Shown one piece after another: positions 26,770 to 40,923 of a stretch of DNA of 44,534 nucleotides. Positions within the stretch are counted from its first letter, which is position 1. Each line of letters starts with the position of its first letter. The DNA is taken from the NCBI GenBank assembly GCA_015767405.1, contig JADWMG010000003.1, forward strand, positions 1 to 44,534, written 5' to 3'. This DNA comes from Actinomycetota bacterium. Its GTDB lineage: Bacteria; Actinomycetota; Acidimicrobiia; Acidimicrobiales; Ilumatobacteraceae. Position numbers and translations under genes: made by a program. The notes beneath the pieces are model-generated. The model did not search any database. It was not told where the DNA came from and was given only the letters and a program-made list of their open reading frames with translations.

Positions 26770-27004
26770 TGAGCAATGGGCGCATCCAGCGCGTGCATCG
26801 CTCACAGGGGCCGAGCCAGACGTAGCAACATGAGCGATTTGCGTGCCCAGCGCACGCATCGCTCACAGGGGCCGAACGAGGTGCGGCGAACGGGCGACAT
26901 GAGCGAAGTCGGCATCCAGCGCGTGCATCGCTCACAGGACAGAACCCAACCCGAGAGATGTGAGCAATGGACGCCTTGGGTTCCATCGGTGAGTGCATCG
27001 CTCA
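26770..27004. repeat. Family III hairpin cluster, four copies (61-nt period)
   Basis: Copies lie at 26770-26804, 26831-26865, 26900-26934 (35 nt each) and 26961-27004 (44 nt, larger loop). Each begins TGAGCgATG and ends catCGCTCA, so the ends pair, with variable centres such as gcgtgc-ccagc-gcacgc. Start-to-start distances are 61, 69 and 61 nt. They fill the gap between the CHAD-CYTH stop (8 nt away) and the amidase gene. Confidence 0.85.
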
Positions 27005-27059
27005 CTGGGATGTGGCTGACGGCGGGAGTTGGTCCGCCGAGAACTGATAAGACGTGGCG

Positions 27060-32512: not shown

Positions 32513-33358
32513 ATGACGAACCCCGAGATGCCGCCACCGATCGTCGACTCGAACTGGCTCCAGTCACAGCTCATGCAGCGACCCGACGACGTCATCACCT
32601 GCGATGTTCGTTCGACGATGTCCGGAGCCGACTCGGCGAACGACTTCCTCGGCAGGCATCTCCCCAGGGCTCGGCTCGTGCTGCTCGAGTCCGCCCTCGC
32701 TGTCGAGCCGGCGGGCACAGAAGGCCGGCACCCGCTCCCGACACCAGCGGCATTTGCCGATGCACTCGGCGCCCTCGGAATCGGCAACGACGTGACGGTC
32801 GTGGCATACGACAATCAGGGCGGTGCGTTCGCTGGACGGCTTGTTTGGATGTTGCGGATCATCGGACAACCTGCGGCATTGCTCGACGGCGGCACCGACG
32901 CTTGGAGCGGCCCCATGGAGACTGGTCCCGGCGCCACCCAAAGCGTCGAGCGAGAGACTGTCGAGTGGCCACTCGACGCGATTGCGGATGCCGATCAGGT
33001 CGTTGATCACATAGCCACGGGAGGAGTTGTGATCGACAGTCGTGCGGCAGAGCGGTACGCCGGTGAGATCGAGCCAATCGATGCTGTGGCCGGCCACGTG
33101 CCCGGCGCGATCAACCTCGTCTTCGGTGAGAACCTCGGACCAGACGGTCGATTCCGCGCACCCGCGCAACTGGCCGAGAGATTCAGCGAGGCGCGGACCG
33201 ACCCACGGGCGATCGTCTACTGCGGCTCGGGCGTGACCGCCTGCCACAACGCTCTGGCGATGGAGTACGCCGGGCTCGAGCTGCCGCGCGTGTACGTCGG
33301 GTCATGGTCCGGTTGGTCGTTCGACACCAACCGCCCCGTCGCCACCGGCGGCAACTAG
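32513..33358 (+). CDS. Thiosulfate/3-mercaptopyruvate sulfurtransferase (tandem rhodanese)
   Basis: A 281-aa protein with two rhodanese domains. The N-terminal one (to about 130) is catalytically dead (VVAYDNQGGAFAGRLVWML). The C-terminal one holds the active Cys237 in YCGSGVTACHN. It transfers sulfane sulfur to cyanide or other acceptors; which donor it uses cannot be seen. Its last codons overlap the end of the convergent molybdopterin oxidoreductase frame by four bases. A family III pair follows 15 nt after the stop. Confidence 0.92.
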   Translation: MTNPEMPPPIVDSNWLQSQLMQRPDDVITCDVRSTMSGADSANDFLGRHLPRARLVLLESALAVEPAGTEGRHPLPTPAAFADALGALGIGNDVTVVAYDNQGGAFAGRLVWMLRIIGQPAALLDGGTDAWSGPMETGPGATQSVERETVEWPLDAIADADQVVDHIATGGVVIDSRAAERYAGEIEPIDAVAGHVPGAINLVFGENLGPDGRFRAPAQLAERFSEARTDPRAIVYCGSGVTACHNALAMEYAGLELPRVYVGSWSGWSFDTNRPVATGGN

Positions 33359-35616
33359 CGAGTTCGAGGTGATGAGCGATGTGCGCACCCTGTGCATGAA
33401 CCGCTCACAGGCTTGAGTTCGAGCTCGAGGTGATGAGCGATGTGCGCACCCTGTGGGCTTGGGGTGCATTGCTCACAGTTGGTACGGGGCGGTTTTGTCG
33501 TGATCCGCGCCCGGTCGCCCGCAACAAGCCCGATCGAAGCTGCATCCGACGGCGAGAGGCGGAGAGCGCCCTGCTTGTCGTTCTTGCGCCAACCCGGATC
33601 GCGGAAGATCGTGTTCGCCGTCGAAGAGCGCCGTTCGCCAGCCGACAGAACGAGGGGAAAGGCATCGTTCGAAGTCACGGGCGACTCCTCGCTCGCCAGC
33701 GCATCCATCTCGGCCATCAACTCGGGGATGACCAGGTTGACACGGCCGTCCGGTGTGACCACGCGTCGCATGGTCTCGTCGTAGTCGTCCACCGAGAAGA
33801 CCACGCCGGACGGGTTCGCCAAGATCGCGTCGAACAGCGCCTCGCCAGCTGAGTCTCCACCTTCGCGAGATCCGTGGCCTGCTCGGCGAATCGATGCATC
33901 CCAGAAGTTCGCCGACGTTTGAGTCAAGCCCCAGATCGCCGCAGCGCCAGCGGCAGCCACCCCATCAGGAGTAGTCAGAGTAGGCCCGAGCGTCTCGTAC
34001 ATGATGATTGCGAGCAACCCTCCGAGTTCGGGCCGCGCTCCAATGAGGGTGAACAGCGCCGTCGCATATTCGGCACGTCCCTTCTCGGCGGCTTCGCGCA
34101 GCGACGCGAGATCAGCATCGCTGTAGGCGCCAAAGGCCCTGCACAACCGAGAGTGGATCTCGTACTCAGGCAGTGTGCCCGCCAATGGTTCGAAGATTGG
34201 CCGGCGGAGATGGAACACGTTTTCGGGAAACTCGAGATTGAAGAACGTGCACTCCCACTTCTCGAACTGCGAGGCAGCGGGGAGCACGTAGTCGGCGCAC
34301 CTCGCCGTTTCAGTAAACGCCACGTCGATGACCACAACCAGATCGAGGGCGGCGAGCGCTTCGCGCATCCGCTGACTGTCGGCGAGCGAGTGGACCGGAT
34401 TGCCCGACTCGATCAACATCGCCCGAAAGCGATCAGGGTGATCGCTGAGGATCTCATCGGGAATCACGTTGCACGGAACCAGACCAGTAACCAGCCGGTG
34501 TCCCGTCACGGGAGTACACGGGACAGATCCGTCAGGCCTCTCAGAGCCCGACCCACCCACCACCGACGCAATCGAGGTGTGAATGTTCATCCCACCGCGC
34601 ACACCGAAATTCCCGGTCAGCAGCACGACCAACTTCTCTAGATAGCTGTTGAGCGTCGAGTGCGGAGCCTGCTGAATCCCGAGATCTTCGAATATCGACA
34701 CGCCTCCGGTCGCGGACCCGATCACCCGAGCGACCTCACGAACCGTCGCCTGATCGACCCCAGCCTTCGCGCAGGAGGATGAAACGTCAACTCTCTCCAG
34801 GTGCTCTCGTAGATCGTCCAGCCCGTTTGCGTTGTCGCTCAGCCAACGGTCGGCGAGAAGTCCTTCCGCGACGAGCACCTTCAGCAACGCAACGAGCAGG
34901 TGGGCGTCGCCGCCGGGCACAGGGCGGAGGTGATAGTCGGCCAGGTCAGCTGACTCGGAGCGGCGCGGGTCGATGACGATCATCGTCCGTTCGGGATCCT
35001 TGGCGATCGCCTTCAGCACGCGGCGGGCCTGGGGAAAACCGTGCGACTGCCACGGGTTCTTTCCCCAGAACACCGCTACCTGGGCGTGTTCATAGTCGCC
35101 CGTCGTGTGGCAAGACGGCTTGCCGAAGAGTTTTCCATCAACCCAGAACTCACCGGTCTTCTCTTGAGCCAACGCGTTGGAGCTGTACTCGATGCCCAGA
35201 GCAGCACGGAATGAACCGCCATAACCGCCACCGAGATGATTGCCCTGTCCTCCACCGCCGTAGAAGAGGATCCGTTCGCCACCGTGTTCGTCGATTACAT
35301 CCTGGAAGCGAGCCGCGATCTCCGCGATCGCGGTGTCCCAATCGATCTCTTCGAACGTGCCGTCTTCACGGCGCCGGAGCGGCGACGTCAAACGGTGTGG
35401 GCCGTTCTGATAGTGGTTCAGCCGCAGGGCCTTTTCACAGGTGTAGCCAGCTGATCCAGGGTGCGACTTGTCGCCCCTGACGCGGACGATTTCGGAGCCA
35501 TCGATCTTGACCTCCACGCCACAGTTGATGGCACAGAGAATGCACGCCGACTTGCGCCACTCAGGATCGTTGCTCGCGGCGGATCCACCAGCGGGTTGGT
35601 CGGTCAAGTCAGTCAT
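33355..35616 (-). CDS. Molybdopterin oxidoreductase with truncated, repeat-encoded C-terminus
   Basis: About 753 aa in the BisC/formate dehydrogenase-like superfamily. The N-terminal [4Fe-4S] ligands are CILCAINC with a fourth Cys in YTCEKALR. Cofactor-binding landmarks FYGGGGQGNHLGGGYGG, VAVFWGKNPWQSHGF, MIVIDPRRSESADLADYHLRPVPGGDAHLL, ESGNPVHSLADS and YVLPAASQFEKWE are present. The C-terminal MopB domain starts normally (LVLSAGERRSS, RLSPSDAASIGLVAGDRARIT) but stops after about 45 residues. The remaining ~40 residues are translated family III repeats. About 80 residues expected of this domain are missing. The ATG at 35616 has AAGGGG upstream and is preferred to 35634. The enzyme's substrate is unknown; activity is doubtful. 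Confidence 0.88.
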   Translation of the reverse strand: MTDLTDQPAGGSAASNDPEWRKSACILCAINCGVEVKIDGSEIVRVRGDKSHPGSAGYTCEKALRLNHYQNGPHRLTSPLRRREDGTFEEIDWDTAIAEIAARFQDVIDEHGGERILFYGGGGQGNHLGGGYGGSFRAALGIEYSSNALAQEKTGEFWVDGKLFGKPSCHTTGDYEHAQVAVFWGKNPWQSHGFPQARRVLKAIAKDPERTMIVIDPRRSESADLADYHLRPVPGGDAHLLVALLKVLVAEGLLADRWLSDNANGLDDLREHLERVDVSSSCAKAGVDQATVREVARVIGSATGGVSIFEDLGIQQAPHSTLNSYLEKLVVLLTGNFGVRGGMNIHTSIASVVGGSGSERPDGSVPCTPVTGHRLVTGLVPCNVIPDEILSDHPDRFRAMLIESGNPVHSLADSQRMREALAALDLVVVIDVAFTETARCADYVLPAASQFEKWECTFFNLEFPENVFHLRRPIFEPLAGTLPEYEIHSRLCRAFGAYSDADLASLREAAEKGRAEYATALFTLIGARPELGGLLAIIMYETLGPTLTTPDGVAAAGAAAIWGLTQTSANFWDASIRRAGHGSREGGDSAGEALFDAILANPSGVVFSVDDYDETMRRVVTPDGRVNLVIPELMAEMDALASEESPVTSNDAFPLVLSAGERRSSTANTIFRDPGWRKNDKQGALRLSPSDAASIGLVAGDRARITTKPPRTNCEQCTPSPQGAHIAHHLELELKPVSGSCTGCAHRSSPRTR
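33373..33475. repeat. Family III hairpin pair (61-nt period)
   Basis: Copies lie at 33373-33407 (35 nt) and 33434-33475 (42 nt), starting 61 nt apart. The flank AGtTCGAGGTGATGAGCGATG is shared by both with one difference, so a 61-nt duplication is likely. On the minus strand they are read in frame as the last codons of the molybdopterin oxidoreductase. Confidence 0.85.
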
Positions 35617-35699
35617 CTGGGCCCCTTTTGCCATCAGCCGAACTGGATGGCTCGACCCAGAAGCTAACGCGCACCGATTCCAACGGCCAGAATGCAGCG

Positions 35700-36437
35700 G
35701 TGAGCGGAACCCAACTGGCGATCGTGCTGATCGCTGTCGTCATCGGCTCTGTGGTCAAATCGGTGACTGGCATGGGCCTGCCACTCATCGTGATTCCGAT
35801 CGCCTCGCTATTCGTCGACGTCAACGACGCCGTCGTCGTCATCGCATTACCGAATGTCCTGGCCAACGCTGTGCTCGGTGGACGCGAACGACACAGCGCC
35901 AGCGAAACACGCGACCTTCCGGTGCTCGCGATCGCGGGGATCATAGGCGCCATAGGTGGGACTCTGTTGTTCGTCAACCTGCCAGAGACCCCGCTCGTGA
36001 TCGCACTGATTGTCGCGATCATTTTCTACATCGTACTCTTCTTTGCCCACCCAGATCTTCGAACCACACCACAACAATCGAAACGTTGGGCGCCTCTCAT
36101 CGGTGGTGTCGGCGGAACCTTCCAAGGAGCGATCGGGATCTCCGGACCGATCATCGGATCATGGATCCACAGCTATCGACTGCCGCGCGGCGCACACATT
36201 CTGTCGGTCACGTTTCTGTTCTTCATCACAGGCTTGACCCAGCTCTTGGTCCTCATCGCCAACGGAGAACTCTCCGGTCGCCTGACAGCGACGTTGCTCG
36301 CCTGCATTCCCGTTCTGGGGTCGATCCCGCTCGGTACACGCCTCCGCGGCGTCGTCTCGAATCGCGGGTTCGACCTCGCCATCGTCGGCATGCTGAGCCT
36401 GTCGATCGTCGCGCTCACCGTGCGAACGTTCCTCTAG
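35700..36437 (+). CDS. TSUP (TauE/SafE) family membrane transporter
   Basis: A ~245-aa protein with about eight hydrophobic segments and the TSUP motifs VVIGSVVKSVTGMGLPLIVIP (first half) and GGVGGTFQGAIGISGPIIGSWI (second half). Relatives export sulfite or other small sulfur compounds, and some import C2 acids. It is divergent from the molybdopterin oxidoreductase gene and lies near a rhodanese gene, so a sulfur role is plausible. The GTG at 35700 is preferred, as an earlier TTG would overlap the divergent gene. Confidence 0.85.
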   Translation: MSGTQLAIVLIAVVIGSVVKSVTGMGLPLIVIPIASLFVDVNDAVVVIALPNVLANAVLGGRERHSASETRDLPVLAIAGIIGAIGGTLLFVNLPETPLVIALIVAIIFYIVLFFAHPDLRTTPQQSKRWAPLIGGVGGTFQGAIGISGPIIGSWIHSYRLPRGAHILSVTFLFFITGLTQLLVLIANGELSGRLTATLLACIPVLGSIPLGTRLRGVVSNRGFDLAIVGMLSLSIVALTVRTFL

Positions 36438-36463: not shown

Positions 36464-36473
36464 GGAAGGGTCC

Positions 36474-36562
36474 ATACGGGGAGCTCGCTGGCACGGCGGG
36501 CTGAGAGGGTGAGCGCCGTCACCGACCCGAGAACCTGATCCGGGTAATGCCGGCGGAGGAAA
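36474..36562 (+). promoter_or_regulatory. TPP riboswitch (THI element)
   Basis: The TPP aptamer is recognised by GGGGAGC at 36478, CTGAGAGG around 36501-36508, GACCC then GAACCTGATC at 36531-36540, and GGGTAATGCCGGCGG at 36542-36556. The Shine-Dalgarno GGAGG (36555-36559) is the end of the aptamer, so ligand binding should hide it and block translation. It is immediately followed by the ATG at 36566. Confidence 0.93.
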
Positions 36563-36565
36563 CGC

Positions 36566-37285
36566 ATGAATGAACGAGTTGTCATCATCACCGGAGCAGC
36601 ACCGCTCCCTCCCGACATCGTTGATCTGATTCCCGACGATGCAGTCCTGCTCGCCGTGGACGGCGGGCTCGATCACGCTCTCGCCGCCGGTCTCGAACCG
36701 TCAGGACTCATCGGAGACCTCGACTCCGTCACCGACGAGGGATTGACCTGGGCGGCACGAAATGCGACGATCACCCGCCACCCGACCGACAAAGAGCAGA
36801 CCGACACCGAACTCGCCCTCGCTCTGGCCGTCACGATGGATCCCGAACACCTCACACTGATCGGCGGCGGCGACCGGCTCGACCACACCGTCGCCGGCAT
36901 CGGTGCCCTCGGCGCCCTCGCACTCACCAGCATTCCGACACTGGACGCGTGGTGGGGCGGCCAACACATCAGCGTCGTCCATGGGCCCGGAAAGGCAACA
37001 CTGCGACTTCTCCCAGGCTCGACGATGTCGTTGTTGGCGATGCACGGCCCATGTACGAAGGTGACGCTGACCGGCACGCGCTGGGAGCTCGACGAGATCG
37101 ATCTCGATCCGGTTGTCGGGCTGGGAGTGAGCAATGAGGTGACCGTTAGTGGCGGTGAGGCGGACGAGGACAACGGCGGTGAGGTCGCCGAAGTCGAGGT
37201 CTTCCTTTCTGGTGGGATCCTCACGATCTTCGATCAGCCGGCCGTGGTCGATGCCGAGAGCGCCGACGAGGAGACCGGGTCGTGA
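36566..37285 (+). CDS. thiN: Thiamine pyrophosphokinase
   Basis: A 239-aa enzyme that transfers pyrophosphate from ATP to thiamine to give TPP. Motifs GDLDS (50-54), DKEQTDTE (75-82) and GGGDRLDH (100-107) are those of bacterial/eukaryotic-type TPK. A short acidic, glycine-rich stretch near residues 195-208 (SGGEADEDNGGEVAEV) interrupts the usual C-terminal beta barrel. It is the first gene under the TPP riboswitch; its stop overlaps the next start by four bases (GTGA), so an imported-vitamin salvage operon is clear. Confidence 0.92.
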   Translation: MNERVVIITGAAPLPPDIVDLIPDDAVLLAVDGGLDHALAAGLEPSGLIGDLDSVTDEGLTWAARNATITRHPTDKEQTDTELALALAVTMDPEHLTLIGGGDRLDHTVAGIGALGALALTSIPTLDAWWGGQHISVVHGPGKATLRLLPGSTMSLLAMHGPCTKVTLTGTRWELDEIDLDPVVGLGVSNEVTVSGGEADEDNGGEVAEVEVFLSGGILTIFDQPAVVDAESADEETGS

Positions 37286-40744: not shown

Positions 40745-40841
40745 TGAGCGATGCAAGCAGCCTGTGCGTTCATTGCTCATCACGCTCGAAATTGCCTAAC
40801 TCCGATGAGCGATGTAGGCGACCGGTGCGCTCGATTGCTCA
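40745..40841. repeat. Family III hairpin pair (61-nt period)
   Basis: Copies lie at 40745-40779 (35 nt) and 40806-40841 (36 nt), again 61 nt apart from start to start. Both end in attgctca and begin tgagcgatg. Read on the plus strand they are free of stops and could extend the next gene upstream, though a start inside the repeat is unlikely. Confidence 0.83.
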
Positions 40842-40923
40842 CACCTCTCCTCCACTATGGGACATCACCCATGCAACAAGGCTGCGCCAGAGAGCTCGGC
40901 ACCTTCGAGAACTAGCGACAGCG

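Follow-up and report, generated by a model that had tools for sequence, protein, structure and literature searches.

Prokaryotic MopB oxidoreductases share an Fe4S4 domain and a molybdopterin domain with a C-terminal dinucleotide-binding domain; in the MopB superfamily, it is domain IV that holds the pterin dinucleotides. REP sequences are short imperfect palindromes that are dispersed, extragenic, and placed close behind stop codons (PMC12306157), and they are known targets of insertion sequences (PMC1525189). Palindromic repeat DNA may also be read as part of a protein, as described for the Rickettsia palindromic elements (PMC10969869).

Here, we describe a MopB oxidoreductase gene that ends in REP-like repeat DNA. 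The window (i.e. the whole stretch of DNA that was analysed, 44,534 nucleotides) is an entire contig (C415) of a metagenome assembly of an uncultured actinobacterium, with 438 contigs and 3.35 Mb, that is 89.5% complete. Its MopB has the same Fe4S4 and molybdopterin domains as other prokaryotic members, but its C-terminal dinucleotide-binding domain is cut after K714. As in the Rickettsia palindromic elements and other in-frame repeat fusions, the tail of the window MopB is translated palindromic repeat DNA; however, the Rickettsia elements insert inside genes and encode a conserved peptide, whereas here the gene end has been lost and the reading looks accidental. The case is best read as a further example of a known phenomenon, truncation with read-through into a REP-like repeat. 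The features of the locus, in window coordinates, are the following:

32513..33358, plus strand: rhodanese-type sulfurtransferase, the convergent neighbour, in a place conserved in a genome of the same genus (G002)
33355-35634, minus strand: MopB open reading frame of 759 residues, from the ORF translation
33493..35634, minus strand: residues 1-714, the body of the MopB oxidoreductase, with homology to relatives and no internal stops
33355..33492, minus strand: MopB read-through tail, residues 715-759 and stop, antisense to the junction and the repeats, with no orthologue relationship
33355..33358: CTAG, in which the MopB stop (complement of 33355-33357) and the sulfurtransferase stop (33356-33358) overlap on opposite strands
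33359..33455, plus strand: region of a 36-bp direct repeat, copies at 33359-33394 and 33420-33455, 35/36 identical
33373..33407, plus strand: repeat unit 1, a 35-bp imperfect palindrome (TGAGCGATG...CGCTCA)
33434..33475, plus strand: repeat unit 2, 42 bp (consensus plus 7 bp), starting 61 bp after the start of unit 1
33477..33492: junction of about 16 bp, non-repeat, separating unit 2 from the last MopB codon with homology
35628..36437, plus strand: TauE/SafE-type exporter, divergent from MopB, with the same layout in a second genome (G079) and adjoining the sulfurtransferase in G002

The position of the break was established by alignment with 83 distinct orthologues, in which the last residue shared with the window MopB is K714 (...GDRARITTK, window position 33493). 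The original prediction had recognized a break but placed it after GDRARIT, and homology reaches two residues further. A search of named genomes gave a similar boundary: homology ended at query residue 711-717 in nearly all of the 80 loci kept, and the few matches reaching 733 or 738 represent chance similarity within the tail. Every one of the 83 orthologues continues past K714, by 62-92 residues, and none is shortened; the relatives have an intact end without the repeat. About 75 residues are gone from the window protein, in line with the some 80 residues of the cofactor-binding domain predicted to be missing. With them went all 21 nearly invariant positions of the orthologue tail, the blocks of which include GHxSLPNGxG, GVAPNELT, RDxxAGTPxHK, and PARxE. 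Up to residue 714, the protein is ordinary, with identity to orthologues of up to 75% across residues 25-714. Many of the closest named relatives belong to Acidimicrobiales or Ilumatobacteraceae, and among solved structures, FdhF-type formate dehydrogenases (7qv7) are nearest in sequence; a literature search on the mycobacterial Rv0197, which had been suggested for comparison, found no paper. Matches were obtained to PF04879 (N-terminal Fe4S4, E 2.9e-11) and PF00384 (central molybdopterin domain, E 1.5e-31) but not to PF01568 (C-terminal molybdopterin dinucleotide-binding domain), which three relatives do match.

The 45 residues that follow K714 are indeed, as had been proposed, the minus-strand reading of two hairpins and their flanks (the earlier count was some 40 residues), and the frame does run without a stop until it overlaps the sulfurtransferase stop. 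The codon log-odds of this tail are lower than those of all 670 equal-length windows of the body. AlphaFold2 modelled most of the first three domains with high confidence, with block means of pLDDT falling to 54-72 in the remnant of domain IV (651-710) and to 31-52 in the tail, values that denote a lack of confidence and are no proof of unfolding. When an intact relative was modelled with the same sequences, most of the corresponding region scored 73-94, and the low blocks were those at 661-680 and 731-750.

Within the body, 2 of about 170 near-invariant positions are changed (0-16 in the other orthologues, median 1), the terminal branch length of 0.29 equals the median, and general decay is not visible. 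Because the body is free of such decay, either the gene was truncated recently or its shortened product still has a use. That the shortened MopB functions, with or without its repeat-derived tail, would be compatible with an intact, stop-free body under normal constraint; yet 21 near-invariant residues are lost, none of the 83 orthologues is shortened, and the tail combines the codon use of non-coding DNA with very low confidence in the model; we regard this reading as highly improbable. A recent truncation appears more likely, because every orthologue seen conserves the missing segment, which is part of the dinucleotide-binding domain. The protein retains its FeS and central domains and, because much of the domain that holds the pterin dinucleotides is gone, it is probably inactive or unstable; to this extent the loss of activity suspected earlier is likely. 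For changed specificity, the other outcome that had been envisaged, we find no support, since the lost segment is conserved and serves cofactor binding and structure, and the tail in its place is non-coding in codon use and modelled with very low confidence. The absence of an intact orthologue from G002 suggests that the gene is dispensable in this genus.

The neighbourhood was compared with those of the two related genomes. In G002, nearly the same genes as those at 24.3 to 44.5 kb of the window occur in nearly the same order, with MopB absent, the sulfurtransferase followed directly by TauE, and no repeats at the syntenic places. In G079, a MopB orthologue (75% identity) with an intact end and TauE form a divergent pair, and the genes beyond are the same. 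Both flanks of the junction are thus in their expected places, being collinear with G002 and, upstream, with G079; furthermore, the MopB body meets non-repeat bases, which leaves an assembler little opportunity to collapse repeats. Judged on these grounds, misassembly at the junction seems unlikely, which answers the concern that the original prediction had raised. An assembly or sequencing error at the repeat might be suspected in a metagenome assembly so fragmented, repeats being common misjoin points; however, the missing end is encoded in none of the nearby frames, as a frameshift would require, and a search of the whole assembly matched only part of a paralogue, with the end itself on no contig, which leaves such an error very unlikely. 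The junction was also sought in viral contigs, with no match. Elsewhere in this neighbourhood, a TPP riboswitch lies at window 36467-36581, and downstream of it are an ABC transporter cluster and a gene resembling that for thiamin pyrophosphokinase.

At the MopB end, two palindromic units and a direct repeat occupy window 33359-33476. A 27-nt core of the repeat (at most 3 mismatches) occurs twice in the window, both times here, with 0 occurrences expected by chance. The units belong to a dispersed family with the consensus TGAGCRATG-N3-GC-N7-GC-N3-CATYGCTCA, a 35-bp imperfect palindrome present at about 30 loci, mostly as tandem pairs; its locations include window 26770-27005, 33373-33475, and 40745-40842 and loci L138-L162 elsewhere in the assembly. 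Searched with a model of the unit, this genome yielded 116 matches, among which many palindromes count for both strands; nine relatives yielded fewer, with 31 for G009 and 1-7 for each of the rest. G009 carries a related but different palindrome (GCGATGAGCGATGAGGCCGC...GGCGGCCTCATCGCTCATCGC; L165-L174), mostly in single copies.

A consensus cut-off yielded 52 units, and the spacing of 23 neighbouring pairs among them was exactly 61 bp in 19 cases, 62 bp in 2, 69 bp in 1, and 70 bp in 1, and the 26-bp linkers are unrelated (mean identity 0.32). The units are asymmetric, and pair members, which are 69-100% identical, have the same orientation in nearly all loci; most loci hold one to three units. 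Almost all loci lie outside called genes, usually within some 60 bp behind a gene 3' end. By approximate gene calls from a simple codon-score script, 29 loci are flanked by convergent genes (10), tandem genes (9), or divergent genes (4), or have one side unknown (6).

Like REP sequences, this family consists of short, dispersed, extragenic imperfect palindromes near stop codons that are host to insertion-sequence insertion. It differs from them in lacking a conserved GTAG or CGTC foot (absent from position counts of the 52 units with 8-bp flanks), in being arranged mostly as tandem pairs with a fixed 61-bp period, and in having no units beside the one Y1-type transposase gene; a RAYT-type link was sought in the 3.3-kb locus of this Y1_Tnp gene, the only one in an assembly that is incomplete. 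Identity with REPINs was rejected, as pair members share orientation instead of being inverted, and identity with CRISPR arrays was rejected on the small number of units per locus and the range of pair identity. An RNA-hairpin function was likewise dismissed: paired or two-sided stem changes were no more frequent than in shuffles, and the MopB repeats had no Rfam match. Because arm letters are conserved without covariation, recognition as DNA would fit the units better than a conserved RNA structure.

Insertion into the family is documented at contig C89, where a 1237-bp IS30-type element (L152 1559-2795) lies in a repeat unit, the parts of which outside the element, minus a 3-bp duplication (GGC), match the 35-bp consensus. 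Two more exact matches to the left end of this element, at window 26974-26991 and on C285 (L268 437-454), abut unit halves with the element body absent, like deletion scars; no unit lies near either of two other full-length IS30-type genes. Unit 2 at MopB contains a short insert, GGCTTGGG, that resembles the end of this insertion sequence, and an IS30 scar was considered as the cause of the truncation; this candidate was dropped, as the orientation and position of the insert misfit the other insertions and the right arm of the unit is intact. No evidence links the IS30-type element to the MopB deletion.

Twenty repeat-facing genes were scanned, and of those that matched a Pfam profile, most extend to its end or nearly so, on which ground general trimming of gene ends by the repeats was rejected. 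A MocA-type oxidoreductase gene (L159 520-1494, on C277) beside a single unit reads on into that unit; of its 324 residues, those beyond 280-285 lack homology to four orthologues, and last residues like those of the orthologues occur in another frame, before the unit. This looks like a separate internal deletion with a frameshift near the 3' end, not a join at the unit. MopB is thus an exception among repeat-facing genes. That an undescribed paired-palindrome family attracts IS30-type insertions and that deletions there repeatedly trim neighbouring 3' ends, MopB being one product, strikes us as quite doubtful.

The arrangement is probably explained by a real 3' truncation of the MopB gene, through a deletion that joined its body to a pre-existing repeat pair. 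Ancestrally, the sulfurtransferase and MopB genes would have converged on a two-unit REP-like repeat lying between their stop codons, a typical site for the family. A deletion, at least some 220 bp long, would then have taken away the stop codon of MopB with the ~75 codons before it and joined codon 714 to sequence beside unit 2. Since then, translation would have crossed the two units in antisense and ended in the CTAG that overlaps the sulfurtransferase stop. Because the normal position of a pair is behind a gene end, and often where two genes converge, the layout requires no insertion if a deletion extended to a pair that was already there; an intact MopB together with the repeat pair was found in none of the strains compared. 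The original prediction suggested that the repeats, or the duplication that made them, had replaced the gene end. Repeat DNA does stand in its place, but the repeats need not have been the agent. Instead, insertion or duplication could have placed the pair within the 3' part of MopB and displaced the end of the gene: it directly adjoins the truncation, G002 is free of repeats at syntenic places, and pair members can be identical, meaning that copying occurs. Against this, no remnant of the MopB end lies beyond the repeat, so that a deletion would be needed as well, and the pair sits just behind the sulfurtransferase stop, the normal position for the family. We consider such an insertion unlikely and infer a deletion. 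An 11-bp inverted match links window 33329-33339, at the sulfurtransferase end, with 33484-33494, at the MopB junction; it is possibly due to chance or a trace of how the join formed.

The repeat family is a more interesting object than the truncation itself, and what gives it wider interest is a pitch fixed at 61 bp between units whose linkers are unrelated, a regularity as yet without explanation. The loss at MopB is most likely recent and fairly ordinary, and the gene offers a clean example of the state soon after the loss of a gene end at a palindromic repeat. Annotation would label the truncated MopB a normal oxidoreductase despite its missing conserved cofactor-binding segment, a caution that domain hits alone are insufficient for inferring molybdoenzyme activity in such genomes.
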